Positions 11,738 through 34,164 of a stretch of DNA of 34,588 nt are shown here, one piece after another. The first letter of the stretch is position 1. Every line of letters starts with the position of its first letter. Position numbers and translations under genes: made by a program. The stretch spans positions 1-34,588 of the forward strand of contig JAFIFN010000029.1 of NCBI GenBank assembly GCA_020832005.1, given 5' to 3'. The notes under the pieces were generated by a model. It was not told where the DNA came from and made no database searches. It worked only from the letters and a program-made list of their open reading frames with translations. Source of the stretch: Gammaproteobacteria bacterium (GTDB lineage Bacteria > Pseudomonadota > Gammaproteobacteria > Steroidobacterales > PWYM01).

Positions 11738-14320
11738 TCAGGGCGTCCGTGCAGCGAGTTCGAGGTCGACGAACTGCCGTTTGGTTTCAATCACCCGGGG
11801 ATGAGCGGGCCCCAAGCGGTCGATGCGGATCTCCAGGGCCGCGTCCAGCAAGGCCCGAGCCTCATCGAGGCGGCCTTGCCGCTGACGCAGCACAGCCAGG
11901 TTGGCGGAGATATCGGCCACGCTCGGATGATGATTCCCGAATGCCAACTGCTTGATTTCGAGCGCCTCGAGCAGCAGCGTCTCCGCGTGCGCCCACTCCT
12001 CGCGGTGCAGCGCAATTCGTGCCATCGCATTGAGACTTCTGCCTATGCTTCTGTGCTGCTCAGGCAATCTGGCACGCCTGATTTCCAGGGCCTCGGCCCA
12101 GTAGCGCTCCGCCCCCTCGATATCATCCAGCCCGAGGCGGACCTGGCCCATCATGTGCAGCAGGGCTGCGTTTCGGGGATGGTCATCCCCCAGCGTGCTG
12201 CGCCTCAGCCGCAGCGCCTCAACGTACATCGCGTAGGACTCGTCCAGCCGACCCAGCGCCATCAGGCTGGCCGCCACGTTACCCATCGAGGTCGTCGTGT
12301 ACGGATGCTCGGGGCCCACATCCGGATCGTTCAGCCGCAGGGTGAGCGCTTGTTCGAACTCATCCAGCGCCTCGGCGATACGTCCCTGCTGCCACAACAC
12401 GGCACCGAGATTGTTCCGCGATAACGCTTCCTCATAGGCACTCGCATCCAGGCGAAGACGGATTTCCAGTCCTTCGCGATGCGCCGCCTCGGCACCGCCG
12501 TACTCGCCGAGGGCATTGAGCGTCGCGGCAAGGTTATTAAGCACCGCGGCACGCTGCAGTTCATCGCCGGTGTCCACCAGGGCCAGGGCTTCATGGAACG
12601 CTGCCGCGGCTTCACGTTGAGCACCGTTTTCTGCAAGCGCCAGGCCCAGCGCGTTATAGGCATCTACACGCTCGCGTGGCAGATCTTCGGACACATCCGC
12701 CAGCACGGCTACCGCTTCCGCCATGAGTGCCACAGCCCGCGTGGTCTCGCCCAGATTACGAAACACATAGCCGAGCGTGACCAGCATTGCGGCCTGCACA
12801 TCAGGCGTTTCTGCGAGTTCGCCGGCGCGCTCCACGCCGCGCTCAACCAGGGACATGACCGTCAGCGCGTCGGGTTCGGACGCGAAATGCGGATCAGCGG
12901 AGCGGAACAGGTCGACGAGGTAATCACTGGTCGCCTGCGCCCGCCTGGCATCGCGCTCTGCGCGCTGGGCAGCCGCCTCGGCGCGCATGGCCTCGAGTTC
13001 CGCGCGGTCGCGCTCGGCACTCAGGCGCTCGGTATGCACGAACAGGGCGCCGATCGCCAGCAGCGGGAGCACAAGCGCCGCCGGCAGACCGAGCGGATGC
13101 CGCCGTGCGAATTTGCCAAGCCGGTAGCCAACACTGTCCGCGCGGGCCCGAATCGGCAATCGCCCGCGATGCCGTGCGAGATCATTGGCCAGTTGTTCCA
13201 CCGTCGCATAGCGACGATTCGGCTCCTTGCGCAAAGCGACCTGGCAGATGATGTCCAGGTCACCGCGAAGCAGTCTTCGCAACCGCGGTACAGTAGTCGC
13301 GCGGCGCACGGCCAAGGCATCGGAGTCGGCAGACTCGTAGCAGTCCCCGGAATCTTCCAGTCGCCGCGACGGCGCCAGGGGTGCAATATCCAGTATGGCG
13401 CGACGCAGATCCTCAGCCTCGCCGAGCTCACCCCGATACGGCGAGCGTCCACACAGCAGCACATACAAAAGCGCACCGAGCGCGTAGACATCGCTGGCGG
13501 TCGTCACCGCGTGTCCCATGATCTGCTCGGGGCTGGCCCACATCGGTGTCATCGGCCGTCCGCCCAAGCGGGTCAACTCGCTTGCCTGACCGGCCCCGTC
13601 GTCATCGCTTAGTACCTTCGCGATACCGAAATCCAGCAGTCGCACATCACCATCGCCGGTGACGAGAATATTCGAGGGCTTGATGTCACGGTGGACGACA
13701 AGGTTGCGGTGGGCATACTGGACCGCATCGAGCACCTGTTCAAACAGTCGCAGGCGCTCTTCGACATTCAGGCGCAGACTGTCGCAGTAGTCGGTGATGG
13801 CTATTCCGTCAACATACTCCATGACCAGATAAGGCCAGCCTTCCCGCGTGGTGCCGCCGTCGAGCAATCGCGCGATGTTCGGGTGAGCCAGTCGTGCCAG
13901 GAGCTGGCGTTCAGCTTCAAAGCGACCGACCAGTGCTTCGCTGCCCGGGCCCACAGCCAGCAGCTTCACGGCCACCTGCTGTTCGAACTCGCCATCGTCC
14001 CGACAACCCAGATACACGACGCTCATGCCGCCGCGACCGATTTCGCGCTGCAGGCGATAGGCGCCTGCCCGCTCAGGCATCGCGAAGGTGTCGGAGGCAG
14101 TGAGACCCAGTCGTCCAGCAAGCCGGCCAAGGCGCCGCTCACCCCGGGCATGCGCTGCGAGCAACTCGCGGACGAGTTTCCGGACCTCGGGATCATCCGT
14201 CGCCTGGGCGAGATGCGCTTCCCGGGTGTCCGGCGACAGCGACAGACTCTCCAGCAACAGGGCTTCGACTTCAGGCGTGATCTGCACTGGCGCCCCGGCC
14301 GAATCCGGCTGGCCGGTCAT
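11738..14320 (-). CDS. Ser/Thr protein kinase with TM helix, coiled coil and C-terminal kinesin-light-chain-type TPRs
   Basis: Gly loop 'IGRGGMSVVYLG', 'VAVKLL', 'HRDIKPSNILV', 'LLDFGIAKVL', 'ASPEQI', 'ASDVYALGALLYVLL'; TM 'LGLPAALVLPLLAIGALFV'; repeated ~42-aa TPR units with 'GDDHP/GNHHP/GPAHP' motifs. Confidence 0.95.
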   Translation of the reverse strand: MTGQPDSAGAPVQITPEVEALLLESLSLSPDTREAHLAQATDDPEVRKLVRELLAAHARGERRLGRLAGRLGLTASDTFAMPERAGAYRLQREIGRGGMSVVYLGCRDDGEFEQQVAVKLLAVGPGSEALVGRFEAERQLLARLAHPNIARLLDGGTTREGWPYLVMEYVDGIAITDYCDSLRLNVEERLRLFEQVLDAVQYAHRNLVVHRDIKPSNILVTGDGDVRLLDFGIAKVLSDDDGAGQASELTRLGGRPMTPMWASPEQIMGHAVTTASDVYALGALLYVLLCGRSPYRGELGEAEDLRRAILDIAPLAPSRRLEDSGDCYESADSDALAVRRATTVPRLRRLLRGDLDIICQVALRKEPNRRYATVEQLANDLARHRGRLPIRARADSVGYRLGKFARRHPLGLPAALVLPLLAIGALFVHTERLSAERDRAELEAMRAEAAAQRAERDARRAQATSDYLVDLFRSADPHFASEPDALTVMSLVERGVERAGELAETPDVQAAMLVTLGYVFRNLGETTRAVALMAEAVAVLADVSEDLPRERVDAYNALGLALAENGAQREAAAAFHEALALVDTGDELQRAAVLNNLAATLNALGEYGGAEAAHREGLEIRLRLDASAYEEALSRNNLGAVLWQQGRIAEALDEFEQALTLRLNDPDVGPEHPYTTTSMGNVAASLMALGRLDESYAMYVEALRLRRSTLGDDHPRNAALLHMMGQVRLGLDDIEGAERYWAEALEIRRARLPEQHRSIGRSLNAMARIALHREEWAHAETLLLEALEIKQLAFGNHHPSVADISANLAVLRQRQGRLDEARALLDAALEIRIDRLGPAHPRVIETKRQFVDLELAARTP

Positions 14321-14889
14321 GACTCGGCCGCCTCTCCCAGGTGACGTTCGAGCCAGATCTTCGCCAGTTCCCAGTCACGCCTCACGGTGCTGACGGAGAT
14401 GCCGAGCGCCTCACTGGTTTCCTCGGTCTGGAGCCCGGCGAAGAAGCGGCATTCGATCACGCGCACCTGGCGGGGGTTGCTCGCCTCCAGCGACTCAAGC
14501 GACTGGTGCAGAGCCAGCACATCGGTGGCAAGCGACTGGTCGGGTGCCGGCATCAGCGCCTCGGCCTGCGTCAGACCCACCTGCTGCGGGTTGCTACCCC
14601 GCTTGGCGGCGCTCACCCGCTTGGCCTCATCGACGAGGATATGACGCATCGCCCGGGCCGCCACGGCGAAGAAGTGCCCGCGGTTCTGCCACTGCGGGTT
14701 TGGCAGCTGCACAAGCTTCAGATACGCCTCGTGCACCAGCGCGGTGGCGTTGAGTGTCTCGTTGCCCTGCCACCGGCGGCGCTGCGCCGCCGCCAGGGTC
14801 TTAAGTTCCGAATACACCGCCTCGTACAGGCGGTCGAGGGCACCCCGATCGCCGGCTTCTGCCTCTTTAAGAAGCTGGGTAATCTCCAT
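14317..14889 (-). CDS. ECF-like RNA polymerase sigma factor (sigma70_ECF, kinase-associated type)
   Basis: 'NETLNATALVHEAYLKLVQ' region 2; region 4 HTH 'VIECRFFAGLQTEETSEALGISVSTVRRDWELAKIWL'; ATGA overlap with the kinase gene start (14317-14320). Confidence 0.93.
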   Translation of the reverse strand: MEITQLLKEAEAGDRGALDRLYEAVYSELKTLAAAQRRRWQGNETLNATALVHEAYLKLVQLPNPQWQNRGHFFAVAARAMRHILVDEAKRVSAAKRGSNPQQVGLTQAEALMPAPDQSLATDVLALHQSLESLEASNPRQVRVIECRFFAGLQTEETSEALGISVSTVRRDWELAKIWLERHLGEAAES

Positions 14890-15795: not shown

Positions 15796-16404
15796 TCACA
15801 TTCGGTCAGTGACAACGTCGAAGCGGCCTTCGACACGCACTGTGTCGGTGGGGTCCGGCGGCCCGTCGAGTCGCTGGTAGAACGCCATGTCGGCGCTGAA
15901 TTTCCCAACCAGGCGCACCCGTCCCTGGCGCTGCCGTTCAATCTTCTCGACGATCACATCGGGGCTCAGGGACCGATAAAGAGACGCCTCCATGTCGCCA
16001 TCCAGGTACAGCCGCAAACCCGCCTCCTCAGGGGTACACGGGCACTGGAGATCCAGGCTGGGCAGGCGCATGGACAGGGAAATGGCGTCGTCCTCGGCCA
16101 ACATTTCCCGGGTCGGAAACGCGTGGATGTAAAGGCCGATGCCCCGCGAGGCAGGATTCGGTGAATTCGACAGATCCGCCCACAGGGCTGTGTTGCCATC
16201 CTTGTCGCGATACGTGTGCAGACGCACCGATTCGATTTCGCCATCGTCATGGATGCGCATATCGACCTGCCCGGTCGAGGGCATCGTGACACGTTGCAGA
16301 AACGAACTGCCCGAGCCCTGCGCATGCACGGGCGATGCCGGGACAAGGAAAGTCAGGGTAAGGGCTAGCGCCGGCGCCAGCGCGATCGGCGAGGTTCGTT
16401 TCAT
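15796..16404 (-). CDS. Exported protein with CPCTPE domain
   Basis: Signal peptide 'MKRTSPIALAPALALTLTFLVPASPVHAQ'; the mature part aligns with the C-terminal part of the protein at 32556..33989. Confidence 0.8.
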   Translation of the reverse strand: MKRTSPIALAPALALTLTFLVPASPVHAQGSGSSFLQRVTMPSTGQVDMRIHDDGEIESVRLHTYRDKDGNTALWADLSNSPNPASRGIGLYIHAFPTREMLAEDDAISLSMRLPSLDLQCPCTPEEAGLRLYLDGDMEASLYRSLSPDVIVEKIERQRQGRVRLVGKFSADMAFYQRLDGPPDPTDTVRVEGRFDVVTDRM

Positions 16405-16634
16405 ATTGGTTGGCGAACTCCTTCAGTGGTAGCGCCTTGCGATCGTCAGCTGACGTCCATCGCCAAATGACAGGGCTTGCAACCACAAACGAAATTCGTG
16501 GCGAAACCTGCTCATCTGGACGGGTCGTGAACGCTCTCGGCAGCGTTGTTCGTATTGGTATAGAAGAGCCACTGACTCTCTGGCAAAGTGCCCTGGAGTC
16601 CCGCGTATCCCTCCACCGATGGAGACCGGAGCGC

Positions 16635-19364
16635 ATGATCCGCGAGCACACACCGGAAAACGGACCCGACCCGCTGGCACTCTCTCCGGAGACCGAGGCG
16701 CTGTTGCTGGATGTGCTCGAGCAGCCGCCGGATGCGCGCGGCGACTATCTCTACCAGTCCACCGACGACCCTCAGCTGCGGCAACTCGTCGAGCAGCTGC
16801 TCGCAGTCCACGCCAATGCCGACCGGCGCCTGGGCAGGCTGGCCCGCCGATTGGGTGGTGATTCACAGGCCTCCGCGGCACCGCCGCTGAGCCTGCCGGA
16901 GCGCGCCGGGCCCTACCGGCTGGAGCGCGAACTGGGTCGCGGCGGGATGAGCGTGGTGTGTCTCGGGCATCGCGACGACGGGCAGTTCGAGCAGACCGTC
17001 GCCGTCAAACTGCTGCCCGGCGGCCCGATGCTGGCATCCCTGAGCCGACGTTTCGACGGCGAGCGCCGGATACTCGCGCGCCTGGAGCACCCGAACCTCG
17101 CCCGCCTTATCGATGGCGGCGTCACCGATGAGGGCTGGCCCTATCTGGCGATGGAATACGTCGATGGTGTGCCCATCGACGAATACTGTGACCGCGAGCG
17201 TCTCGACGTGGCGGCACGGCTGGCGCTGTTCGAACAGGTGCTCGAGGCGGTGCAATACGCGCACCGCAACCTGGTGGTGCACCGCGACATCAAGCCGAGC
17301 AATATCCTGGTGACGGGCGACGGTCGCGTGAAACTGCTGGACTTCGGCATCGCCAAGGTGCTCGAAGACGCGGCCGAGAGCGCAGATGCCACGGAGCTCA
17401 CGCGCCTGGGTGGGCGGCCGATGTCGCCGGCGTGGGCCAGCCCGGAGCAGCTCGGCGGCCAGCCCGTGACCACGGCCAGCGACATCTACTCGCTGGGCTT
17501 GCTGCTCTATCGGCTGCTCACCGGCCATCTCCCGCACCCGACGGGCGCTACGGATCTCCAGGCGCTGCGCCAGTCGATGCTCGAGCGGGAACCCACGCGA
17601 CCGTCGCTGAAGGTGCTCGAGGCCGCAGGTGACAACGAGTGCTCACCTGAGGAACTCGCCCAGCGTCGCGCCAGCGGACCGCGCCGGCTGTCACGGGCGC
17701 TCGCGGGTGACCTCGACAACATCGTGCTCACGGCGCTGCGGCGCGAACCCGAGCGCCGCTATGCCACGGCCGAGCAGTTCGCTGCCGATATACAACGTCA
17801 TCGCGCCGGCCTGCCCGTGCGTGCGCGGCCGGACACCTGGGCGTATCGCAGCGGCAAGTTCATCGCCCGACATCGGCTTGCCGTGGCCGGCGCGGTGCTG
17901 GTGCCGATGATGATTATCGGCGGGCTGGTGGTGCACACCGAGCGCCTGCAGGTGGAACGCGACAAGGCCGAACTCGCCGCAGCGCAAGCCGAGCAGGCAC
18001 GCGTGGAGGCCGAAGCGGCTGCGCGCATGGCCAGTCTTGAAGCCCAGCGCAGCGACCGGGTCAGCGACTACCTGGTCAGCCTGTTTCGGGCGGCAGCGCC
18101 TGCCCAAGCGCGAGGCGAGGTCGTTACGGCCCAGGATCTCGTGGCGCTTGGTGCCGGGCAGCTGACCGATCTGGAGACAGAGCCGCTGTTGCGGGCTGCG
18201 TTGTTGACCACGCTTGGCGAGGTCAACGGCGCGCTGGGCCAGTATCGGGAAGCGAACAGCCTGTTCGCTGAAGCGCTGGAGATCTACCGGGGTGATCCGG
18301 ACGCCGATCCGGCCCTCACCGCAGAGGCGTGGAATTATTTCGGGGTCAGTCTGTTTCGTCTGGGTCAGCTCGCCGAAGCGGAGCAGGCCTACCAGGAAGC
18401 GTTGGCACTCGCGCCGGAGGCTGCACGACAGTTACGCGCCCGCACGCTCAATCATCTCGGCGTGGTGTACGTCGTCTCCAACCGTTTCGCCGAATCCAGC
18501 GATGTCCTGGAAGGCGCCCTTGCGCTGCTCGAAGACTTGGCGCCGGGCAGCGCGGATCACGCCAGTACGCTGAACATTCTCGGCACGGTGCGCTCGCGAC
18601 AGGAGCGCCATGACGAGGCCATCGCGATGCTCGAACAGGCGCTCGCGATTCGACGGTCGCTGTATGGCGACGATCACCCGGAGACGACCATCGCACTGAG
18701 CAACCTCGGCACAGTATTGTCCGAAGCAGGTCGCCCCGCTGAGGCCCGGATACACATCAGCGAGGCACTCGAGATCGATCGGGTGATCCTCGGTCCCGAT
18801 CACCCAAGCCTGGCCACGCTGTTGCTGCAGCTTGCTTCGCAGGAACTGCTGCTCGGGGACCCTGCGGCCGCCCGGGGGAACCTGCGACAGGCACTCGATA
18901 TCCAGATCGCCCAGGTCGGAGAGATTCATCCCCTAACCGGGTTCATGCTTCACAACAAGGCGCGTGCGCTGAATGACCTGGGCGAGCAGCGCGCAGCAGA
19001 GGAGTATTATCGTCGGGCAATCGACGTCGGCAGGGCGGTTCACGGCAGTGAAGATCGGGTGCTTGCCGCCTCGTTGCAAGGGCTCGGCGACATAAAAACC
19101 GAGCAGGGCCTGTGGGAGGAAGCGGAGGTGTTGCTGACGCAGTCCCTGAACATGCGTCGTAGCCTGCTGGGCGATGACAGTGAACAGAGCGCTGAATCGT
19201 ATCTGGCGCTCGCGCAACTGGAATCGAGACGTGGTCGGTATGAACAGGCTTTGGCGCATGCGCTCGCCGCGCAGGCCATCTACCGGCAGCGGCTGGCGGC
19301 CGACGATTCCCGCAGGCTGGACGCCGACGCGCTGGTGGAGTCGATTCGTGACGACTTACGGTAA
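16635..19364 (+). CDS. Second Ser/Thr protein kinase-TPR protein, full-length paralog of 11738..14320
   Basis: 'LGRGGMSVVCLGHRDDGQFEQTVAVKLL', 'QYAHRNLVVHRDIKPSNILVTGDGRVKLLDFGIAKVL', TM plus coiled coil, TPRs. ATG at 16635 matches the paralog's N-terminus; the listed ORF start at 16410 is too far upstream. Confidence 0.94.
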   Translation: MIREHTPENGPDPLALSPETEALLLDVLEQPPDARGDYLYQSTDDPQLRQLVEQLLAVHANADRRLGRLARRLGGDSQASAAPPLSLPERAGPYRLERELGRGGMSVVCLGHRDDGQFEQTVAVKLLPGGPMLASLSRRFDGERRILARLEHPNLARLIDGGVTDEGWPYLAMEYVDGVPIDEYCDRERLDVAARLALFEQVLEAVQYAHRNLVVHRDIKPSNILVTGDGRVKLLDFGIAKVLEDAAESADATELTRLGGRPMSPAWASPEQLGGQPVTTASDIYSLGLLLYRLLTGHLPHPTGATDLQALRQSMLEREPTRPSLKVLEAAGDNECSPEELAQRRASGPRRLSRALAGDLDNIVLTALRREPERRYATAEQFAADIQRHRAGLPVRARPDTWAYRSGKFIARHRLAVAGAVLVPMMIIGGLVVHTERLQVERDKAELAAAQAEQARVEAEAAARMASLEAQRSDRVSDYLVSLFRAAAPAQARGEVVTAQDLVALGAGQLTDLETEPLLRAALLTTLGEVNGALGQYREANSLFAEALEIYRGDPDADPALTAEAWNYFGVSLFRLGQLAEAEQAYQEALALAPEAARQLRARTLNHLGVVYVVSNRFAESSDVLEGALALLEDLAPGSADHASTLNILGTVRSRQERHDEAIAMLEQALAIRRSLYGDDHPETTIALSNLGTVLSEAGRPAEARIHISEALEIDRVILGPDHPSLATLLLQLASQELLLGDPAAARGNLRQALDIQIAQVGEIHPLTGFMLHNKARALNDLGEQRAAEEYYRRAIDVGRAVHGSEDRVLAASLQGLGDIKTEQGLWEEAEVLLTQSLNMRRSLLGDDSEQSAESYLALAQLESRRGRYEQALAHALAAQAIYRQRLAADDSRRLDADALVESIRDDLR

Positions 19365-21257: not shown

Positions 21258-23675
21258 ATGCTGCGGATGAACGGAATCGCCCACGACGTCCTGATCTGGG
21301 GTATTGGCATCGTCGCGCTTGCGGGTGTCGATGTGGTGCATGGGGATTCTGGCCGCCAAGCAACTGTCGACGACTCGCCAGTGGCATTTTCCGGCACCCA
21401 GACCTCCGCCATGGCAGGACAGTCCGATCAGGGTGTTCGTCTGGAAGAAGAGCTTCGCCGCTTGGACCTCCTGATGGACGCATTCGAGGAGCTCCGGTTT
21501 CAGCTCGATCGCACACAGTTTGATGTCGAAGCGCTGAGTCTGGCATTGCAGCCCGGCGGAGCGATCGCCTACCTGGACTACGTCACAAACCAAGTCTACT
21601 TCGAGCAGTATCCCGGATTGCTGCGCGGGGCTGCCGGTGCGCTCATGAGCCGTGCCGGAAACGCCCTCGATCAGGCCGTACTGCTCGCGACTCTGATGTC
21701 CGACGGTGGATACGACGTCAGAATTGTACGAACTGAGTTGACGGGTGCACAGGCCCAACAGTTGATCGAGCAGATGCTGGTTGAGCGATCACCGCATGCG
21801 CCACCTGCTGAGACGGACGTCACGCTTGAGATTCTTGAAGAGATTGCTGAGCTGGTCGGTCGCAGCCCTGAACTGATCGACGCCGCGATGCTACCGATCG
21901 GCGGGGACCCCACCGAGTCTCTGATGGACACTGCAGTATACGAAAGTACCCTTGCGCAAACAGCGATGATTCTCGAACTGCTCGCTGCGCATGATGTTCC
22001 CCTTGGCGATCCGGACTACCTGTCACGGATTCGGAACGAGGCGAAAGACTATTTCTGGGTGGAATACCGTCGTACACAGGCGAACCCCTGGCGCCAGGCG
22101 CATCCCGTATTTCGCGACCCACCGGATTGGCTGGCCACGCTGGAAAGTCTTGAAATACTCGATCGAGAGGTCCCTGAGCCGCTGCAGTACCGCATCCGCT
22201 TCGTCGTATACGCTCAACAAAAGTGGGGGCATGATGAGCGCACCCACATGCTGATGGCGCCCTGGGAGGTCCCGGTCGCCAATCTCGCTGGCCGACCGCA
22301 GGTCTTTCAGCTTACTCCGGACTCTGTGCCGGACGAACAGAGCGAACAACACGTCGATTGGGATCAGCTAAGCGACGACATGCGATTCATGTTTCCGAGG
22401 TTCGGGGAGTTCCTGGCGCCGGGGGCGGTTGCGCTGGATATCCGGGGAAATGTCGCCGACCCGGAGGCTGCGGCCAGCCCGATGGCCGGCGTCTTCGCAA
22501 CTGGCGCGCAGCGCGTCGGCGAGGCCGCCGGCGCTTTGGATGCCCTTGGCCAGACTCAGGCGGGCGACGCTACACCTGAGGCGTTCGTTGACTTGATTGG
22601 CGTGTACGCCGAGTACTCTCTGATCGCTCCGGGGGGTCAGGAGATATCCATTCGTCGTGATCTGCTGGATCCCGAGACAGATGCCCAGTCTCGGCTCGCC
22701 TCATTGTTACGGGAACAGACCTTCATGGTATTCACCGGAGGTCTACCCGATGCATTCATCATTAACGCTTACCTTGATCGAATCCTCGCACTCAGGGAGA
22801 CATTCCGCACGATGATCCGCCTGGGGGCAGGCGAAGGCCCGTTCTCTGTTCCAGCGGCGGAACTTTCGACCGATACACGTTGGCTTGGACACCTGATCCT
22901 TTCGAGATTGTCCGATGCCGAAAACGGACGGAGCGCACCACGCACATACCGGAACGCACCGGGACTGGTGATCTACGAAACCGATACGATCGATTTATCA
23001 ACAGACTGGCAGCGCATCGACATTGCCACGAACCCCCGGCGTCCGCTGGATGTGAGTCAGAGCGCCGAGCCTGCAGGCGTAGAACTGCTGGTGCGCTCCG
23101 GTGTATGGGAAAGCCATGCGGAGGGCATAGTCATCGGCGCGGACGCCCTGGGGCAGGCTGGAACGATCGGACGAATTTCGGCCGCACTCGCCGCGGGGGA
23201 GCAGCTTGAGGTCATTCATCCTTTCGACGTCTCGTCACTGCGCTCGCTGCGAATGGAGAGCCATGCCCTGGAGGCAATCAGGCAAGACCTGGAATCTGGC
23301 TATGCCGTGATTGTGCCGCGCGCGTTTGCGGAGACCGGGGCGGGGTGGTGGCGGATTGATCCCATGAGAGGCAACACGCTCGCAATGATCGCAGACGGTC
23401 GTGGTGGCCAGGTAAAAGAGTACATGACCGTGAAAGAGGGGAAGGGAATGCTGAAGTTGCTCAAAACAATCAGATTCTCGCAGCACTGCTTCGACGGGAC
23501 CCTGCAGAATGTCGCGGATGCGATGTTCGGTTTCATTACGGTCATGTACGGCGATGTTGGAACATACCTGAGGAGCGTTTACGGTGATGATCTGGATGCC
23601 GCCTCCGAGCGCATGAACGCCTGCGAAAGAACGATCGTGCGCATGCTCATTTCAGCCTCGAATCGACTTCCATAG
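21258..23675 (+). CDS. Large exported protein with degenerate transglutaminase-like core
   Basis: 805 aa; N-terminal hydrophobic segment; 'YFEQYPGLLRGAAGALMSRAGNALDQAVLLATLMSDGGYDVRIVRTEL' resembles the transglutaminase core 'GxCxDxAxLLAxLLRxxG' without the Cys. Confidence 0.75.
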   Translation: MLRMNGIAHDVLIWGIGIVALAGVDVVHGDSGRQATVDDSPVAFSGTQTSAMAGQSDQGVRLEEELRRLDLLMDAFEELRFQLDRTQFDVEALSLALQPGGAIAYLDYVTNQVYFEQYPGLLRGAAGALMSRAGNALDQAVLLATLMSDGGYDVRIVRTELTGAQAQQLIEQMLVERSPHAPPAETDVTLEILEEIAELVGRSPELIDAAMLPIGGDPTESLMDTAVYESTLAQTAMILELLAAHDVPLGDPDYLSRIRNEAKDYFWVEYRRTQANPWRQAHPVFRDPPDWLATLESLEILDREVPEPLQYRIRFVVYAQQKWGHDERTHMLMAPWEVPVANLAGRPQVFQLTPDSVPDEQSEQHVDWDQLSDDMRFMFPRFGEFLAPGAVALDIRGNVADPEAAASPMAGVFATGAQRVGEAAGALDALGQTQAGDATPEAFVDLIGVYAEYSLIAPGGQEISIRRDLLDPETDAQSRLASLLREQTFMVFTGGLPDAFIINAYLDRILALRETFRTMIRLGAGEGPFSVPAAELSTDTRWLGHLILSRLSDAENGRSAPRTYRNAPGLVIYETDTIDLSTDWQRIDIATNPRRPLDVSQSAEPAGVELLVRSGVWESHAEGIVIGADALGQAGTIGRISAALAAGEQLEVIHPFDVSSLRSLRMESHALEAIRQDLESGYAVIVPRAFAETGAGWWRIDPMRGNTLAMIADGRGGQVKEYMTVKEGKGMLKLLKTIRFSQHCFDGTLQNVADAMFGFITVMYGDVGTYLRSVYGDDLDAASERMNACERTIVRMLISASNRLP

Positions 23676-24361: not shown

Positions 24362-27300
24362 CTAATCGAGAGTGACCAGCGTTGCCACGCCGCCGCGCAG
24401 GCGCTGGTCCTCCAGCCGCCGCGGCGCCTCACCGTCGACGACAATGGTGTGTGTGCCCGCGGCGACCTCGATTTCTTCACCGCCGACAAGACCCGTGGCG
24501 ATGACACTGCCCGCGCGACCCAACACGCGGTAAGGCACGGCGAATGCGCGCTGCAGCGCCAGCACCAGTTCCTCTTCGCTCGCCGAATCGAAATACAGAC
24601 CGCCCGCCTGCGCGGCCAGTGATTCGAACTCGGCCTGGAAGCCCTGGTCGCCGAGCTGAAAGCCGACGATGTTCAGTCGCAGGTCGAAGCCCTGATCGAG
24701 CAGCTGTGCGATCACCGCCTGTGCATCGCCATCGCAGGTCTCCTCGCCGTCGGTCAGCAGCACGACCATCCGTCGGCCAGTCGCATCCGCGAGATCGTCT
24801 GCAGCTTTTGCCAGCGAGTCGGCGATCGGCGTTCTGGCGAGATTGATCGCCGTGATGCCCTCCAGCGAGCTGCGGAAGCCGCTGCGCTGCAGCGGCGACA
24901 GTGGAATCTCGAGATCTGATCGGCAGGCGTTGGCTTCGCGGTTGCCGTAGACCCGCAGCGCGACCGGCGTACCTTCCGGGATGACCTCGATGACTTCGCC
25001 CAGCACGCGCTTGGCAACCTCGATGCGACGCCCGCCTTGCATTCTGCGCAGCATGCTGCCGGAGGCATCCAGGATGATGGACACCGCCCCGGCAGGCACC
25101 AGAGGCTCGGCACTGACAACGCGAAGCCGCGCAGGGCCGGGGTCCTGTTCGAAGCGGCTCGACGCGGTCAGCAGATATTCGGCAGGGTCGCGCAGCTCCT
25201 GTGTGACCCGCTGGAGCGCGGCGTCGAGCTGCGCGGCATCGTAAACCGTTGCGTAGTAGCCGCCATTCACTGCGGCGAAACTCTGCATGGTCGACTGGCG
25301 CCGGCGCAGATCATCAGTAACACGCCCCGGGCGAACCTTGAAGGCATAGACCCGCGGCTTGACCTGTGCCATCGCAGGCCAGAGCGTGCGGCCGATCCCG
25401 CGCATATTGATATCTTCTTCCGCATCACCAATGGCGATGATGGCGCGCTGGCCCGGGCGGTCGCGAAGGGCATCGACCGCATGGATCATCGCCGTGTGCA
25501 CATTGCTGCCCGAGTAGTTGTTGTCGAAGGCATTGAGCCCCAGGGCGACTTCATGCGGGTCGTCCAGGAAGCGCGTGAAGATCGGTGGGCCGTCGAACTG
25601 GATGAACTGGGCCTCATCCAGTCCGGGACGCAGCGAGCGTGCGTACAGGCGCACGGCCCGCTGGATCATGGCCACGTACTGGGCCACCGAACCGCTGGAA
25701 TCCCAGGCGAAAACAATCGACAGCGGTGCCTCGAAGACGCGGATGCGCAACTCCTCCCCAGGCTCCGCGCGCAGCAGTACCTGATGATGGCGTCCGGCGG
25801 TGCGCTCGCTCTCGGGGGTGCGCGGACGGCCGTCTGCGCCCTGGATTTCCAGTCCCGCGCGCAGGCGCTCGACACCACTGAGGGTCAGCTCCATCACGTT
25901 GTGACCCTCCGGCATGCGCAGGCGATACCACGCCTCGGTCTGGCCGAGCTGAACGTGTCCCCTGGCAGGCTCATCGGCAACCAGCGCTGCGGCGGTGGCC
26001 GTGGTCCGGTTGCCCTGCTGCCGCGGCGGCTCGCGCAGGGGCAGCGGGGCCGGGAAGGCATGCTCATACGGCCCGTCCCACCAGTCCGTCCCCCACTCGG
26101 CCAGCGCACTCCGGTAGCTCGCATCAACCGGGGGTTCGTAGATGCGTATCCGGGTCGGCAACATGAAGCTGGCCGCCGCCTCGGCCGCGTTCGATTCGAA
26201 TCGGACATAGCGTGCCCAGACAGGTGTTTCGGCCTGCCAGCGCCCGCCGGAGTCATCGACATCGATCACGGCCACGGTCTCCCATGGACCGATCGGACTG
26301 GCCAGCGCGACCTGCACCGTGAATTGGGAAAAGTGCGGCATGCCCCCTGCAACACGATGGGGCTCGATCACGATCTCGCCGATACGGGCCGAACGCTGGT
26401 CACGAAACCCGATCAGCCATGAAGTAGTCTGTCCGGCCGCCCGTCGCAGCGCGCCCATCTGACTGCCCTCGTCGAGCAGCTGCTCCGCCCAGATGCCGAA
26501 TCCGGCAATCGGGTCGGTATGGATGACGTGGCCGCCCAGCGACAGCTCGGCGAGGTTGAAGCCGCGGCCGCCGCTGAGATCCAGGTCACCCGAGGCCAGC
26601 ACCTTGAAGGCGTTGAGCTCGATGCGCTGCTCGCTGGCCAGTGCCGGCGCGCGCAGGATCAAACGCGCATGACGCGCCATGACGGGCTCGGGCAGCGCGA
26701 ACGCCTGTGGCCTGGCCAATGGCGCCATCTCGGCTTCGAGCACCGTCTCGAAGTGCTCGCCGTCTTCTGACAACGCGACTGCGAACGCCGCCAGCCGCCG
26801 GGCGGGTTCGACGCCTGTCGTATCCAGTACGAACCCGTGGATCGGCGCAGCCGTATCGCCGGCCAGTACGATATCGACATGCTCGCCATGACGGACCTGG
26901 AGGTTGGCGGTTTCCGGCAGGCTGCCGCTGATCAACCGCTCGTGTGCGGTCGTCCCGCTGACCGGGCGTGCGCCAAACTCGCTCCACGCAACGTTGATCG
27001 CGCCAACCAGCGGCTCAGGGAGGACCGCGCCTGGCTGCGGCGACACGGGCCTGGTGGACGGGTCGACCGCAATCTCCAGCGCGGCCGCCACCTGGCGCTG
27101 GTCGGCGTGGCGGGCCGCGAACGCCAGGATAACCGGCTCGGCCGGCGCCAGGTCCCGGCCGCTCAGCGATCGCCAGGCGACTTCGCGTGATTCGCCCGGT
27201 TGAAGCCGGATGTGACTGTCGTCGACTTCGAGCGACCAGGTCCGGTCGCTGGCGCTGCTGATGAGTTCGACCTCGAGCGGCTCATCGCCCTGGTGCTGAA

Positions 27301-29590
27301 GCCGCAGGAGACCCTCGAGCTGCTGGCGCGTGCGTATGAACGGCGCGACCCGCTCGGCCGCGACCTCGGCACTCAATTCCACGGGCAGCGCGGCCGTCAG
27401 CTGCGCCTGCTGCGCGCCGAAATCCACTGACAGGTCGAACTCGCTGTTGCCCTGCAGACGCAGCAGGTAGTCCTGTCCGGCGGCGAGGCGTGCCGGACTG
27501 CTGCGCGCATCGTGTTCCCGCGTCAGCAGGTCGGTGTCCGGATCGTCGGCGTGGAACAGCGCGAGGCGGATCGAACGTGTCCCCTCGACCCGCAATTCAC
27601 TGTCCTGCACAAACCGCGGCAGTCGATACCAGCGTTCGCGCATCGTCGTGTCGAAACGCCCATGGAGTCGAAAATCCTGCGGCAGCGGACGGGCCTGCTC
27701 GGCAAGGCGCTGCGGGTGAAGGACCGTGAGGCGCTGCAGCGGATGGCCTCTTGCAGCAGTGATCTCGTAGCGTCCTTCGCCCGGATCATCAGCGCGTAGC
27801 TGAACATAGTGCGGTCCGGCGTCGAGCAGCAGCGCAGGCGTTGTCGTCTCGCCCGGTGACAGCCGGAACTCCTGCACCGGCCGCGAGCCCCACAGCACCG
27901 TCGCCCGCAGATCCCCGTCATGCGGTGCGGTCAGTGTCAGCGTGATCAGCTCCGGGCCGCGCAGGTCCATCCGCAGGTAGGTGCGCTTGTCGGTCCTGGT
28001 CACATTGCCTTGCAGCGTGGTGCCATCCAGCGGCAGGTCGAACGCCAGTTCGGGTGCATCGCTGGGTTCGGTGACCAGGTTCGGCGGTACCGCGCCGAGT
28101 GACTGCGCCTGGATTTCGTAGTTGCCCTCGTTGCCGGTCAGGGCAAAGATGTGTCGGCCCACATCGAGTACGAGATTGTCGAGGCGCAGCGGACCGGTCT
28201 GTCGCGATGCCCGTCGTGCGCTCTGCAGCGTGGTGTTGTAGCGCCCGCCGCGCTGCACCAGGGAGAGCTCACGGGAAGTCTCACCGCGGGCGATGACACG
28301 CCAGATCTCTGCCTGCCCCTCCACCGTCACGAAGAAGTGTTCGATGTCTCCATCGCGTCCGAAGCTGCCCCGGGCGCGACCGTCAGCGGCCAGCGCCACC
28401 GCCTCTCCAGGCGTGTCGTTGGGTTCGTAGATGACGCCGCGGCGGATGCGCCCACGGCGCTCCCAGCGGATCCTGTAGTCGGTCTCGACGCTGGCCGGGC
28501 GCACGCGCAGGCCATGTGTGCCGGGCTGCAGCACGAGATCGTCGAGCCGCGCCCCCTCGCGGCCCTCGCGACACAGCCGATCAGTGCCGTCCGGGTGCAG
28601 CAGGCAAAGCTCCATGGCGGTTCGCGGCTCGGCCTCGAGGATCAGCGACAGCCGTTGCGCGGTCCATTCTTCACTGAGCTCGAAGCGAAAGAAATCCGGA
28701 TCCCGCGGGCCGGAGCGGCCACTGATCGCATCGCCTTCGCCCACGACAGTCGCCTGCGGCCAGCGGTCGTTTGGCTCGCGTTCCTCGCCGGCCGACACCG
28801 GACCACTGAACTCAAGGTTGATGACCCGTGGGCCGGCATGCCCATCGGCGATCTGCACCAGGTATTCACCTGCCGGCAGCATCAGGTTTGCCAGCCGTGC
28901 GCGACCGGCCCGGTCGACTTCGCGGCTCGCCACCTGCTGGCCCTGGGCGTCGTGTATCCGCAGTTCGGCTTTTCGCCCGGGTGGCACATGGCCGGCGAGG
29001 GTCACGGCGGCCTCCTCCCCAGCCTCATGCGAGAAGCGATACCAGCTTTCGGCCTGCATGGCGTAGTGGTGCAGTGGTCGGCGCTCGGTGATGCGCTGCG
29101 CTGCGTCGGCCTGTGCGTCGGTGGATGGGGGCAGCGATTGCGTCGGTGAGGAGCGCAGGAACACGCGATAGCTCCCGGCGGCTGCCATCCGGGCGCGACT
29201 GATACCGAGCAGGTAATCGCCTTCCTCGACGACCAGACCCTCGAGGACGGCGCGTGGTGATTCGGGCTCGGCCTGGAGCGCGACCAGGACCTCGGGGGAT
29301 TCGTCGGGATCACCCGACCAGCGCAGCAGATCCACGCGCGTGAGGCCGCCCGGGATGCCTTCGAGTTCGATCGTCCACAGCCGCGCGGCCGCAGCGTCCT
29401 CCACACTCCACAGGAAGAAATCCTGGTCGTCCTCGTAGAGCTCGCCGACCAGCGTCGCTTCACCCCTGACCGGGGTGGCCTGGGCCGGCTGATTGTTCGG
29501 CTCACGCTCCACGACAACGCGTGAGGACTGGGCTGACAGCAGGACTGGCCAGAGCAACAACGCAACACGCAGCGTCCGGGACATCCGCAT
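24362..29590 (-). CDS. Giant exported protein: PPC-like repeats, discoidin-like middle region, two VWA domains
   Basis: ATG 29590 with AAGGAG upstream (29599 also possible), 'MRMSRTLRVALLLWPVLLSAQSS' signal. 'EREPNNQPAQAT', 'EREPNDRWPQAT', 'IYEPNDTPGEAV', 'TEPSDAPELA' repeats; MIDAS 'DSSGSV' and 'DASGSM'; 'LLTDGEETCDGD'. Confidence 0.88.
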   Translation of the reverse strand: MRMSRTLRVALLLWPVLLSAQSSRVVVEREPNNQPAQATPVRGEATLVGELYEDDQDFFLWSVEDAAAARLWTIELEGIPGGLTRVDLLRWSGDPDESPEVLVALQAEPESPRAVLEGLVVEEGDYLLGISRARMAAAGSYRVFLRSSPTQSLPPSTDAQADAAQRITERRPLHHYAMQAESWYRFSHEAGEEAAVTLAGHVPPGRKAELRIHDAQGQQVASREVDRAGRARLANLMLPAGEYLVQIADGHAGPRVINLEFSGPVSAGEEREPNDRWPQATVVGEGDAISGRSGPRDPDFFRFELSEEWTAQRLSLILEAEPRTAMELCLLHPDGTDRLCREGREGARLDDLVLQPGTHGLRVRPASVETDYRIRWERRGRIRRGVIYEPNDTPGEAVALAADGRARGSFGRDGDIEHFFVTVEGQAEIWRVIARGETSRELSLVQRGGRYNTTLQSARRASRQTGPLRLDNLVLDVGRHIFALTGNEGNYEIQAQSLGAVPPNLVTEPSDAPELAFDLPLDGTTLQGNVTRTDKRTYLRMDLRGPELITLTLTAPHDGDLRATVLWGSRPVQEFRLSPGETTTPALLLDAGPHYVQLRADDPGEGRYEITAARGHPLQRLTVLHPQRLAEQARPLPQDFRLHGRFDTTMRERWYRLPRFVQDSELRVEGTRSIRLALFHADDPDTDLLTREHDARSSPARLAAGQDYLLRLQGNSEFDLSVDFGAQQAQLTAALPVELSAEVAAERVAPFIRTRQQLEGLLRLQHQGDEPLEVELISSASDRTWSLEVDDSHIRLQPGESREVAWRSLSGRDLAPAEPVILAFAARHADQRQVAAALEIAVDPSTRPVSPQPGAVLPEPLVGAINVAWSEFGARPVSGTTAHERLISGSLPETANLQVRHGEHVDIVLAGDTAAPIHGFVLDTTGVEPARRLAAFAVALSEDGEHFETVLEAEMAPLARPQAFALPEPVMARHARLILRAPALASEQRIELNAFKVLASGDLDLSGGRGFNLAELSLGGHVIHTDPIAGFGIWAEQLLDEGSQMGALRRAAGQTTSWLIGFRDQRSARIGEIVIEPHRVAGGMPHFSQFTVQVALASPIGPWETVAVIDVDDSGGRWQAETPVWARYVRFESNAAEAAASFMLPTRIRIYEPPVDASYRSALAEWGTDWWDGPYEHAFPAPLPLREPPRQQGNRTTATAAALVADEPARGHVQLGQTEAWYRLRMPEGHNVMELTLSGVERLRAGLEIQGADGRPRTPESERTAGRHHQVLLRAEPGEELRIRVFEAPLSIVFAWDSSGSVAQYVAMIQRAVRLYARSLRPGLDEAQFIQFDGPPIFTRFLDDPHEVALGLNAFDNNYSGSNVHTAMIHAVDALRDRPGQRAIIAIGDAEEDINMRGIGRTLWPAMAQVKPRVYAFKVRPGRVTDDLRRRQSTMQSFAAVNGGYYATVYDAAQLDAALQRVTQELRDPAEYLLTASSRFEQDPGPARLRVVSAEPLVPAGAVSIILDASGSMLRRMQGGRRIEVAKRVLGEVIEVIPEGTPVALRVYGNREANACRSDLEIPLSPLQRSGFRSSLEGITAINLARTPIADSLAKAADDLADATGRRMVVLLTDGEETCDGDAQAVIAQLLDQGFDLRLNIVGFQLGDQGFQAEFESLAAQAGGLYFDSASEEELVLALQRAFAVPYRVLGRAGSVIATGLVGGEEIEVAAGTHTIVVDGEAPRRLEDQRLRGGVATLVTLD

Positions 29591-29777
29591 GGTCGGCATT
29601 CTCCTTGCCAGGCAGTCAGGCGACCGAAGCGTCGAGTTTCCGACGGGGAGGCGCCACGAACAACCCTCGGAAAATACCTGAGCAGTTTTGCCGACGGATC
29701 TCGTTTGAGAGGAGGTGACCGCAGTATTCGTGTGCGGCGCCGTGACCCCTGAAGCCACATCCGCAAGGAGAAATCCG

Positions 29778-30368
29778 ATGACCGATTTGCCCCGTCCTCA
29801 CGCGCTGGATCGTCGGCGCCTGCTCATTGGTACGGCCCTGCTGGTCGGTGCTGCGACCGTGGCACCAGTGACCCTCGGCCGCGAGCAAGGCCGCCTGGAG
29901 ATCCGCGTGCGCGATCCGAGACGACTGGAGGGACTACGTGGCGAGGAGCTTCGCAGAGCCTTGCTGGAACACCTCCAGATTCGCAGCGCAGATGCCAGAG
30001 AGGCGATTCCCGTCGCGCTGTGCGTCGTTCGCGTGGAAGGCGGCCGTGTCGCCGAGGTGTTCATGTCTGGGGAATTCCGCGCGGCGGGAGGTGAGAACTC
30101 AATCCCTGGGGGAGACATGTTTATCCCTGGAGGGGATATGTTCTTTCCACGAGATATGTTCATCCCGGGCGGAGACATGTTCATCCCGGGGGGCGATATG
30201 TTCTACCCACCGCAGGGGGCGGAGCGGTACGCCGCCGAGGCTGCCGTTCGCGTGCTGGGCGAGCAACGCGCCGAGCATGGGCTGTTCTTCGTGGTGATTG
30301 CGGCAGATCCGCGGGTTCGCGAGTCGATCGCCTCATCGGGCACCGCGCTCCCCCTGGCTCGCGGTTAG
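29778..30368 (+). CDS. Exported protein carrying tandem IPGGDMF repeats
   Basis: AAGGAG SD 7 nt before ATG 29778; twin-Arg/hydrophobic N-terminus 'DRRRLLIGTALLVGAATVAP'; 'SIPGGDMFIPGGDMFFPRDMFIPGGDMFIPGGDMFYPP'. Confidence 0.8.
   Translation: MTDLPRPHALDRRRLLIGTALLVGAATVAPVTLGREQGRLEIRVRDPRRLEGLRGEELRRALLEHLQIRSADAREAIPVALCVVRVEGGRVAEVFMSGEFRAAGGENSIPGGDMFIPGGDMFFPRDMFIPGGDMFIPGGDMFYPPQGAERYAAEAAVRVLGEQRAEHGLFFVVIAADPRVRESIASSGTALPLARG
30102..30203 (+). repeat. Five tandem ~21-nt in-frame units encoding IPGGDMF (third unit 18 nt, FPRDMF)
   Basis: ATCCCTGGGGGAGACATGTTT / ATCCCTGGAGGGGATATGTTC / TTTCCACGAGATATGTTC / ATCCCGGGCGGAGACATGTTC / ATCCCGGGGGGCGATATGTTC. Confidence 0.95.
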
Positions 30369-30375
30369 TCCGGCC

Positions 30376-31560
30376 ATGCGACCTTGCCGTGGAGTTCGAC
30401 GGCGCGCAGGGACCCTCGCGGATGCCGTGGTGGTGGGCGGCGGCCCTGCGGGCTGTCTGGCCGCGACGCTGCTGCACGCGACCGGTAGACGGGTCCTGCT
30501 GTTGCACCGTTCGCGCGGTTCGCATGGCAAAGGTGCGGGTGCGCACGCGCATCGGATCCCCTCGGAAAGCTGGCTGGCCCTGGAGCGGATTCTGCCCGGT
30601 CTTCATCGTGAGGTGATTGAAGCAGGCGCAACGCAGGGGTCGCTGCATTGTCTCTCCGCCGGCGCCGGGAACGACGCTGCGGTTACGCCATGGTTGTCAC
30701 GTCGACTACTGGACCGTCTGATGCGCAGGCGCACAGCGGCCGCCGGGGTGATCGTCAAGGACGTCTCTGCACTGCACGTCGCAGCACTGACGACACGGCA
30801 ATGGGAGATCGACTACCAGCCCGCCGATGGGCGCAGTCGGATCGCCCATTCGCGCGCACCGCTGCTGGTCGACGCCAGCGGGAGTGCACGCGCCGCGCTT
30901 GCGGGTGTAGCCGGCGCACTCGGGTCTGCGATCCCCCTGCTGCAGGTGCCGGGGCAGGATCATTACTGGTCCGTACGACTGGCGGATATTGCGCTGCCAT
31001 GGGGCGCCGGCGCGTTAAGTCTCGATAGTGACAGGGCAGGCAGGGTCATCATCCAGCGCCTGGAGTCGGGTTCAGACGACGGGGCCACGCATCTGCTCAC
31101 GTGCATTGTCCGCGGTGAATCCCGCGGCACGGAAGGTGCGAAGCCGACTCCCACTGATCTGCTCTCCGCTCTGTCTGCGGATCCCGAGCTGGCCGACATG
31201 CTCGCCAATGCCCGACCGGTGGCGCCGCCGAACCGCTTTGGCCCGCTGCCGATTCAACTGCTCCAGATGCACCGCGTCGGTGCCGCTGCGCCCGACTGGC
31301 TTGCGCTGGGCGATGCCTTGCTGGTCACGCCACCGGCGAAAGGGCTGGGTATCGCCTGGGCGGTGCTGCAAGCCGAGCGTCTACGCGCGGGCCTCGATGC
31401 CGGCCTTGAGTCCGACGAGCTTCGCCGCAGCCTCGGTGAGTTCGCCGAGGCGGCGTGGCTGAGCGCCAGCTTCGAACAAGCGCTCGAGGATGACGGCTTT
31501 CACCCGCGCAATTCGTTTGACCTCTTGAGAGACCAGAGCGAGGAGTCATGTCATGCGTGA
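30376..31560 (+). CDS. FAD-dependent oxidoreductase/monooxygenase-like (halogenase / LodB-like fold)
   Basis: N-terminal 'AVVVGGGPAGCLAATLLHATGRRVLLL' Rossmann; 'LVDASGSARAAL'; C-terminal 'DWLALGDALLVTPPAKGLGIAWAVLQAERL' (GD motif). Confidence 0.8.
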   Translation: MRPCRGVRRRAGTLADAVVVGGGPAGCLAATLLHATGRRVLLLHRSRGSHGKGAGAHAHRIPSESWLALERILPGLHREVIEAGATQGSLHCLSAGAGNDAAVTPWLSRRLLDRLMRRRTAAAGVIVKDVSALHVAALTTRQWEIDYQPADGRSRIAHSRAPLLVDASGSARAALAGVAGALGSAIPLLQVPGQDHYWSVRLADIALPWGAGALSLDSDRAGRVIIQRLESGSDDGATHLLTCIVRGESRGTEGAKPTPTDLLSALSADPELADMLANARPVAPPNRFGPLPIQLLQMHRVGAAAPDWLALGDALLVTPPAKGLGIAWAVLQAERLRAGLDAGLESDELRRSLGEFAEAAWLSASFEQALEDDGFHPRNSFDLLRDQSEESCHA

Positions 31561-32518
31561 ACGTTGCAAGGGAACGTCTTTCGGATCACAGGTGATCGGC
31601 ACGCTGGCCGTCGTCCTGGTGCTGTCGCCGATCGATGCATCCGCCCAATTCATCGACCGGTTGCGCGACGCCGCGCGGGGTGCCGCCGAGCGGGAGACCC
31701 AGCGGCAGGTCGAGATCCGCGTTCGCGAGACCGTGCGCTGCGCCTTCGGCGAGATTGAATGTATCCAGCGGGCGGAATCGGAGGGCCACGACGTCGAAAT
31801 CGTCGATGCCCAGGGCCAGGTCATGAGTCCGGCCGACGTGGAGGCACTTTCGGCCGGCGCCGCCGGTTTCGCGCCCGCTGCGCCACCGCCTGGCGCGGGC
31901 GCGTTGCCGACTGCGGTACCCGGCGCTGCCACCGGTGCGGCACACCAGTTCGTAGCGGGCAGCCATGTGCTGTTCTTCGATGACTTCGCTAACGGTCGCG
32001 TCGGGGACTTCCCAGGCGGGCTCGAGTTCGTCCGCGGCAACCTGGAACTCGTCGAGTGGCAGGGCCGGAAGCTGCTGCGCGCCACCGGGCCGAGCCGTTT
32101 CCGGGTCGCGCTGCCCGGCGCGCTGCCGGAGAGTTTCACGCTGGAGTTCGATCTGCACGTCGGCGACACCGGCCTTGATGAGAACGCCGTATTGACCCAG
32201 ACCCATGATGGCGCGCTGTTCGAGTACGAGGGCAACTATTTCGCCCTGGGGGGACTGGGGCCCGACGGCAACATGGGCTTGCGTGGCCGTAACCTGCCGA
32301 CCGCTGTGGTCGAGTCGCGGCGTACGGAGGCCGCAGTTGTGCCGGTGCGCATCCTGGTGCAGGGCAGTACGACGCGGATGTTCCTCGAGGATCAACGCAT
32401 CGTGAACGTCCCCAATGCGCAGCTCGCGCGCGGCAACGTGCTCGAGTTCCGACTCAACGGCAGCGACCAGTCCCCGAGCCACATCACGGGGATCCGCGTG
32501 GCCACACAGGCGCCGTGA
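31553..32518 (+). CDS. Exported protein with LamG/concanavalin-like C-terminal domain
   Basis: ATG 31553 overlaps the upstream stop; signal peptide to 'DASAQF'; 'FFDDFANGRVGDFPGGLEFVRGNLELVEWQGRKLLRAT...FTLEFDLHV'. Confidence 0.75.
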   Translation: MRERCKGTSFGSQVIGTLAVVLVLSPIDASAQFIDRLRDAARGAAERETQRQVEIRVRETVRCAFGEIECIQRAESEGHDVEIVDAQGQVMSPADVEALSAGAAGFAPAAPPPGAGALPTAVPGAATGAAHQFVAGSHVLFFDDFANGRVGDFPGGLEFVRGNLELVEWQGRKLLRATGPSRFRVALPGALPESFTLEFDLHVGDTGLDENAVLTQTHDGALFEYEGNYFALGGLGPDGNMGLRGRNLPTAVVESRRTEAAVVPVRILVQGSTTRMFLEDQRIVNVPNAQLARGNVLEFRLNGSDQSPSHITGIRVATQAP

Positions 32519-32555
32519 ACTGCGCGGCACAACCCCACCGCCGGAGGGTGGAGCG

Positions 32556-33989
32556 ATGAGAACAGTGAGCACGGCTTTCAACGGACTCTGTTTGGCTGTC
32601 GCAGCAGGCCTGGCCTGGCCGCTTGCGTTGCAAGCCGCCGAGGGCCTGTACCTCGAGCAGCGCATGTCCACCGAACAGCAGCGTGACCATGACGAAAGTC
32701 ACATGCGCAGCTGGGTCCAGGACGAGCGCTTTCGCATGGAGTTCGTCGACAGCGAACATCCCTTGTTCGCGGCAGGCACCTACATGCTGAGTCTCGACGG
32801 CGGCGAGACCAGCTATCTCGTCGATCCGGCGGCGCAGACCTACACACGGGTCGCGCCGGCCGAAATCGCCGAACAGCTGTTCGCCGGGCTGACGGCCATG
32901 GAGGACGAGGGCGGCGACGGGGCCACCCGCCAGATGATCGATATCCAGTTTTCGGACGTGTTCTCGGAAGATCTGGGCACGGCGGCTGGCGAACCCGTGT
33001 TGGGATACTCCACAACGATTCACCGCGTACGCTCCGGCTACACCATGGAGCTCAAGGTGCTGTTCATGACTCATCGCCAGAGCGTGGAGACGGTCACCGA
33101 GCTCTGGGTCACCGGCGAGATCGACTCGCCACGCATCAGCGCATGGTTCGACATCGGCACGGTGACGGGTAATGAAGAGTCCGATGCCGCGCTGATCGAC
33201 CCGCTGGCGTCAATATCGGGCACGGTGCTTCGATCGGTGCACGAGACGACCGTTCGCGCCGGCCGCCGCGGTCGGCCACAACAAAGCCGCAGTGTCATGG
33301 AGGTCACCGCACTGAGGCACGAGTCCATCGACAGCAGCCTGTTCGAACTGCCCGCAGGCTTTGCCGAGCAGTCACTGGCCATGCGCCTGGGCGGTACCGA
33401 GATGCCTTCAGTGGCCCGCGGGCCCGAACCCTCCGGGGGTGCCGTGCGCCGGGTCGGGCGGATGTTCGGCGGTGTGTTCAACCGTGAATCGGACGACGAA
33501 GAGCGCAGCCTGGAGGAACGTATTTCCACCCTGATGCGGGTGCCCACCGGTGACCTGGAACTGCTCATGGATGGCAAAGCACTGAGGCTGCAGACCTTCC
33601 TGCGCGACGACGGCAACACCGCGGCCTGGGTGGCACAGGCCGATGGCAGCTTCGCGGTGTTCGTCAATGGCTTTCATGACGGCCACGACGGCTATCGGGA
33701 CACCATCAGTGTCCGTGCCATTGTCAGCGGGTTCGACACGCCGTGCCCGTGCACCCCCGAAAGAGTCGTCATCCGGTTCCACCAGGGCGACGATCGGATG
33801 ACGAACTTCTACGAGTCGACCGATGCGGAGCTCGTGTTTACCCAACTGGACCGCAACGGCGATCAACTCGAGGTGGCCGGCGAGTTTGCCGGGCCTTTCG
33901 GTTTCAAGCGCGATATGGACTCGACCCCGGGACAGCGCATCCACGGTGAGGGCCGCTTCGAGGCGCTGGCGAACCGCGCCGGGCATTGA
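32556..33989 (+). CDS. Exported two-part protein: DUF4412-like N-terminal region and C-terminal CPCTPE domain
   Basis: ATG 32556; signal peptide 'MRTVSTAFNGLCLAVAAGLAWPLALQAAE'; C-terminus aligns with 15796..16404. Confidence 0.8.
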   Translation: MRTVSTAFNGLCLAVAAGLAWPLALQAAEGLYLEQRMSTEQQRDHDESHMRSWVQDERFRMEFVDSEHPLFAAGTYMLSLDGGETSYLVDPAAQTYTRVAPAEIAEQLFAGLTAMEDEGGDGATRQMIDIQFSDVFSEDLGTAAGEPVLGYSTTIHRVRSGYTMELKVLFMTHRQSVETVTELWVTGEIDSPRISAWFDIGTVTGNEESDAALIDPLASISGTVLRSVHETTVRAGRRGRPQQSRSVMEVTALRHESIDSSLFELPAGFAEQSLAMRLGGTEMPSVARGPEPSGGAVRRVGRMFGGVFNRESDDEERSLEERISTLMRVPTGDLELLMDGKALRLQTFLRDDGNTAAWVAQADGSFAVFVNGFHDGHDGYRDTISVRAIVSGFDTPCPCTPERVVIRFHQGDDRMTNFYESTDAELVFTQLDRNGDQLEVAGEFAGPFGFKRDMDSTPGQRIHGEGRFEALANRAGH

Positions 33990-34164
33990 TCCCGCACTGC
34001 CGGTATGCAGCTCGGACGCGAGGCATCGAGAACGCCAATCTCGCCTTCGATCCAGCCGAAGAGCCGCCGACCCTGTGGGCCTCAAGCCGTGCACAGCACT
34101 ATGACGTTCAGGCTGCCTATATCCCCCTATACTCAGGTCAGTACAACAGCTGGGGGAAAATTCA

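Follow-up and report, generated by a model that had tools for sequence, protein, structure and literature searches.

A tandem array of five units, four of them IPGGDMF, in a small and probably exported protein of a gammaproteobacterium appears to be a genuine peptide module under selection, and it is best read as a turn motif, [ILVF]-P-G-(G)-D-[MTQ]-[FY], that has been amplified, varies in copy number and is carried in a flexible surface segment of that protein. The array lies at positions 30102-30203 of the window, by which we mean the whole analysed stretch of 34,588 nucleotides, and is translated as SIPGGDMF IPGGDMF FPRDMF IPGGDMF IPGGDMF YPP. Short tandem repeats are common in exported proteins, and in this respect the array is of an already known kind. 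As far as tested, the IPGGDMF repeat and its recurrence across phyla are undescribed: Pfam, NCBIfam and PDB gave no match describing the array and a literature text search for PGGDMF or PGGDTF gave none, in agreement with the initial annotation, which knew of no such repeat. The occurrence of the same undescribed hexa- or heptapeptide in two phyla, on different scaffolds and with similar envelope genes nearby, makes it a compact and testable peptide module.

The array was called independently by TRF (30102-30203, period 21, 5.0 copies, score 92) and is the strongest TRF array within the window. Units 1 (30102-30122), 2 (30123-30143), 4 (30162-30182) and 5 (30183-30203, followed by YPP), all on the forward strand, read IPGGDMF and unit 3 (30144-30161, same strand) is a degenerate FPRDMF. 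The five-unit array of the initial annotation was thereby confirmed, but not its uniform 21-nt period, since the unit lengths are 21, 21, 18, 21 and 21 nt and the middle unit has only 6 residues. The longest exact fixed-lag self-match in the repeat protein was 10 residues, as compared to a maximum of 6 when the mature protein was shuffled 20,000 times. No PGGD[MTI]F unit was found in a search of the rest of the genome. A terminator-like hairpin in the repeat (30122-30138) was dropped as an explanation, with one such hairpin found and 2.4 expected by chance, and so was an antisense reading, as the synonymous differences match the sense frame.

The four full units differ from each other by 3-4 nt in pairwise comparisons, and all differences are synonymous. 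At least 7 changes are needed on any tree, none of them nonsynonymous, and given that 21-24% of the possible changes are synonymous, the probability that all 7 would be so is about 2-4e-5. Selection on the peptide, which had been proposed from the synonymous differences in the first place, is thus supported, and the units have therefore diverged over a long time under such selection rather than by fresh slippage. The view that the array is a neutral slippage product without function is accordingly very improbable and largely refuted already. It would fit the sporadic distribution of the array, which is missing from most loci with a DUF4412 gene, and no orthologue of the repeat protein was found in 60 relatives or seen in 4 congeners. 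Absence from orthologues had been named in advance as the mark of a slippage artefact; the objection nevertheless fails because the units have diverged only synonymously and the same motif, written in other codons and set among similar neighbouring genes, reappears in another phylum.

The array is part of a gene for a 196-residue protein (29778-30368, + strand) with an ATG at 29778 preceded by AAGGAG and a TAG stop codon, which is also present in the MAG of a close relative (L033). An Arg-rich start (DRRRLLIG) and a hydrophobic segment (residues 12-34, 29811-29879, + strand; mean hydropathy 1.8 over residues 16-34) form a probable export signal that is Tat-like by eye. Export of the protein, as originally suggested, is on these grounds probable, although the NCBIfam Tat model gave no match at E<=1. 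Two single-sequence AlphaFold models of repeat proteins had mean pLDDT values of 52 and 35, with the repeat segment unstructured in both (residues 103-146 in the window protein, predicted to be disordered with a pLDDT of about 30), confidence levels that are too low for fold assignment. Foldseek matches to SPOP MATH domains were discounted on account of the low-confidence model and an rmsd above 8 A, and a PDB sequence search gave nothing convincing. In the L033 MAG the gene order is conserved and the array identical, within a region that is 97.9% identical overall. Across positions 27102-33991 the identity to L033 is mosaic, with mismatch-free stretches of about 600 nt alternating with dense differences, which suggests either recombination between close strains or a chimeric assembly.

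A motif-only scan with the Met form, GDMFxPxGDMF, of one genome per species from 85,462 species, a pattern search of the kind that had been proposed at the outset, returned two stretches, one in L033 and the other in Gaetbulibacter sp. 4G1. The latter encodes a 187-aa exported protein with IPGGDMFIPGGDMFVPGGDTFVPGGDTF, comprising two IPGGDMF and two VPGGDTF units. Its array codons differ from those of the window, and the peptide is therefore what the two arrays have in common. A search with the Gaetbulibacter protein against 399 genomes of its family identified four IPGDMF units in a 159-aa exported protein (G490), with 6 pairwise differences between units, all synonymous. This match covers the repeat segment and its E value of 6e-4 per genome, for 399 genomes, would be unconvincing if it were not for the gene neighbourhood. 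In a third genome (G322), a 423-aa protein consists of a LamG-like part fused to 15 units, mostly IPGDQF or IPGDQY, and is adjoined by a DUF4412 gene. Phmmer comparisons of the window protein with the Gaetbulibacter and G490 proteins yielded repeat-driven E values of 4e-13 and 3e-9, respectively.

All three genomes belong to one Flavobacteriaceae-type family, in a phylum other than that of the window, and each array resides in an exported protein near DUF4412/LamG-like envelope genes. The copy number, which the initial annotation had wished to see compared across strains, is the same in L033 and ranges from 4 to 15 across carriers. Only one of 42 further DUF4412 neighbourhoods (that of G322) contained an array, and the cluster therefore works without it; the sporadic distribution of the PG(G)DxF arrays suggests lineage-specific elaboration. 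Two genomes (G383 and G336) have a single conserved LPGDM[FY]VP in a separate exported protein adjoining DUF4412. Neither a strict motif scan covering 300 genomes from the family of Gaetbulibacter nor a relaxed scan of 396 genomes of its phylum recovered anything beyond Gaetbulibacter and one chance match. Tblastn searches of plasmids and phages with repeat queries gave low-complexity matches only, and no repeat was found in the viral contigs searched. An ORF with about 15 FQxMNLL-type heptads (L076, 1317-1685, - strand) was a chance match.

The pattern hydrophobic-Pro-Gly-(Gly)-Asp-x-aromatic is kept in the units of the window, Gaetbulibacter and G490 and in the majority of those of G322. The x position is occupied by Met, by Thr in Gaetbulibacter or by Gln in G322, and Phe is sometimes replaced by Tyr, while FPRDMF in the window and LKGDKF, ITGDQY and ILGGQL in G322 are more divergent. 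The key triplet of the initial annotation, Asp-Met-Phe, hence gives way to Pro-Gly-(Gly)-Asp-x-aromatic. That Met varies while Pro-Gly, Asp and the aromatic residue persist argues against both Met-based metal binding and Met modification. The pattern kept is as expected of a turn-and-display or ion-binding unit rather than of a Met-centred site.

An ion-binding unit could take the form of a small beta-roll or solenoid, RTX-like in principle, in which stacked units would bind Ca2+ or another ion through Asp and turn carbonyls. We consider this unlikely, though second in rank among the explanations. Nearly all units offer a Gly-Asp turn every 6-7 residues and the 15 units of G322 would be enough for a solenoid, but four units are few for a stable one, the period differs between species (7 versus 6), each unit has a single Asp, the model is disordered, a Met-based site is improbable for the reason given above, and there was no Pfam match to RTX or hexapeptide repeats. 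The RTX nonapeptide repeats (GGxGxDxUx), which form a Ca2+-binding beta-roll, are similar to the array in that short repeats of exported proteins combine a Gly-Asp turn with a hydrophobic position, but their period is 9 rather than 6-7, and the window array has no GGxGxD and few units. With 6-7-residue units and no Pfam match, it lacks the sequence signature of the RTX or haemolysin-type Ca-binding repeats. Elastin-like repeats are built from VPGxG proline-glycine turn units. They resemble the array in the [IV]-P-G start and in consisting of tandem turn-forming units, with no homology implied, but each array unit adds Asp-x-aromatic and the arrays are short and located in bacterial exported proteins. 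Among the tandem-repeat families described in bacterial and archaeal surface proteins (PMC2447325), the likeness is one of tandem repetition in cell-surface proteins, but the repeats named in the part of that work considered here are 42 and 45 residues long rather than hexa- or heptapeptides.

The Gaetbulibacter and G490 loci are homologous, with 36% identity for the exported TPR-CHAT protein, 45% for the ECF sigma factor, 34% for the anti-sigma-like protein and 38% for DUF4412. The array gene directly follows the DUF4412 gene in G490 and is separated from it by two further genes in Gaetbulibacter. In the window, the + strand order is the repeat gene, an FAD oxidoreductase, an exported LamG-like protein (31553-32518, + strand, overlapping the end of the oxidoreductase gene) and an exported protein (32556-33989, + strand). 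The LamG-like protein is homologous to the LamG/OmpA proteins of flavobacterial DUF4412 clusters (E 5e-10 for G490, 2e-9 and 1e-6) and to the LamG part of the G322 fusion (E 4e-4), and it is because of this homology, together with the array itself, that the window is tied to the same kind of locus. No LamG-like gene was recognised near the Gaetbulibacter array. DUF4412 genes are present in the Gaetbulibacter, G490 and G322 array loci; the window candidate, 32556-33989, scored 20.1 bits against a cut-off of 21.6 and was not confirmed by a flavobacterial DUF4412 profile. The window has the selected tandem [ILVF]PG(G)Dx[FY] units of the grouping that we define here, the exported PG(G)DxF-array proteins of DUF4412/LamG clusters. 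A recurrent flavobacterial locus with an ECF sigma factor, an anti-sigma-like TPR protein, an exported TPR-CHAT protein and DUF4412 was seen in L040/L041, L075-L078, L122, L137 and L140, with variable small exported proteins. Other repeats were observed close to DUF4412 loci: collagen-like DGQDGANG repeats (L134, 14684-15337; L149, 3069-3716) and a long GGGDQ repeat in a 1090-aa protein (L139, 3985-7257). A full-text literature search for DUF4412 found no paper, and the clusters (ECF sigma or hybrid two-component regulators, exported CHAT, DUF4412, LamG/OmpA) appear to be unstudied.

With most repeats masked, one small domain common to proteins of G490, G322, G348 and G428 was still recovered. 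Three of these relatives, two from G348 and one from G428, have no true array; in one of the G348 proteins there are two degenerate units, LFSGDHFFLGDHF, as though the array had grown out of a GD turn. Masking the repeats in the window and Gaetbulibacter proteins left scaffolds with no detectable relationship to this domain or to one another. The scaffolds may have diverged too far to be recognised as related; if not, the motif either moves from one scaffold to another or arises repeatedly.

The neighbouring genes raise the alternative that each unit is recognised or cut by one of the exported proteases or cross-linkers of the clusters, such as the TPR-CHAT protein, which has a caspase-like fold and may cut after Asp, or a transglutaminase-like protein. 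The Asp is nearly invariant, exported CHAT proteins are encoded at both the Gaetbulibacter and G490 loci, and transglutaminase-like proteins at the G490 locus and in the window (21258-23675, + strand). However, the window showed no recognisable CHAT gene, and the homology between the two transglutaminase-like proteins, which would be another link between the window and the flavobacterial locus, is suggestive only. This alternative is improbable and ranks fourth, ahead of neutral slippage alone.

A different role would be that of a substrate for the adjacent FAD-dependent oxidoreductase of the monooxygenase/geranylgeranyl-reductase/halogenase superfamily (30376-31560, + strand), with Phe or Met oxidised in the cytoplasm prior to Tat-type export of the folded protein. 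The gene begins 7 nt past the stop codon of the repeat gene and both are kept in L033; the flavoprotein has no evident signal peptide and the repeat protein has its Tat-like start. The comparison would be with LodB, GoxB and QhpG and their quinoprotein partners (PMC7876137, PMC4417212), where an FAD enzyme gene is likewise located beside a possible protein-substrate gene; QhpG is a flavoprotein that hydroxylates a Trp of its partner protein (PMC7876137). The best NCBIfam matches were indeed QhpG (2.9e-11) and LodB (2e-5), but with scores of 42.9 bits (cut-off 240) and 23.8 bits (cut-off 400), so that the curated family cut-offs over the whole protein were not reached, and the QhpG match was confined to the FAD-binding part. 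An unrelated halogenase-like control enzyme scored 112 bits on the QhpG model. The repeat protein, which is not an oxidase subunit, contains no Trp, the residue targeted by QhpG and LodB, and it is not matched by the Tat model. There was no relative of the flavoprotein in the Gaetbulibacter genome or in the flavobacterial clusters examined, an absence that also bears on a comparison with multicore RiPPs, for which the adjacency in the window and L033 would speak. Searches covering 297 genomes from the order and 369 from the class gave generic FAD similarity only, with no close relative, and the best class-level match sits among lipid/aryl-polyene-like genes. Because the control scores higher, Trp is lacking, close relatives are lacking and Gaetbulibacter has no such gene, we treat the flavoprotein as a lineage-specific neighbour, not generally associated with the array; its candidacy as a specific QhpG/LodB-type enzyme was dropped after the control and the Gaetbulibacter result. 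The substrate role, to which this neighbour is the only pointer, is doubtful and placed third.

First in rank, and the best of the three roles initially suggested (metal-binding, adhesive, modification-substrate), is that of a multivalent interaction strip of the cell envelope, perhaps acting together with a LamG-like partner, which we favour tentatively. Each Pro-Gly-(Gly)-Asp would form a beta turn between short hydrophobic or aromatic segments, several copies would display acidic and aromatic side chains in a recurring pattern, and the repetition may provide avidity, through multivalent binding, for a putative envelope partner. Among candidate partners we place first the exported LamG-like protein whose gene lies two genes downstream, since in G322 the array is joined to a LamG-like domain within a single polypeptide. 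A bolder and rather unlikely extension is that PG(G)DxF serves as a portable tag of an undescribed envelope system in at least two phyla, carried in 1 to 15 copies on unrelated small exported scaffolds and recognised by a dedicated, co-clustered reader that could be LamG-like, exported CHAT or transglutaminase-like.

Divergent from the repeat gene is a 1.8-kaa exported protein with a vWA domain (24362-29668, - strand), beyond which lies the transglutaminase-like gene. This very large vWA/PPC-type protein and the transglutaminase-like protein constitute a conserved pair, with homologues adjacent at five other loci of the order (two in G011 and one each in G024, G007 and G015), all without the repeat and FAD genes. 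The exported proteins at 15796-16404 (- strand) and 32556-33989 have an unnamed C-terminal domain in common, which contains a CPCTPE motif (25% identity, E 2e-12), and two Ser/Thr kinase-TPR proteins (11738-14889, - strand; 16410-19364, + strand) flank a gene for an ECF-type sigma factor.
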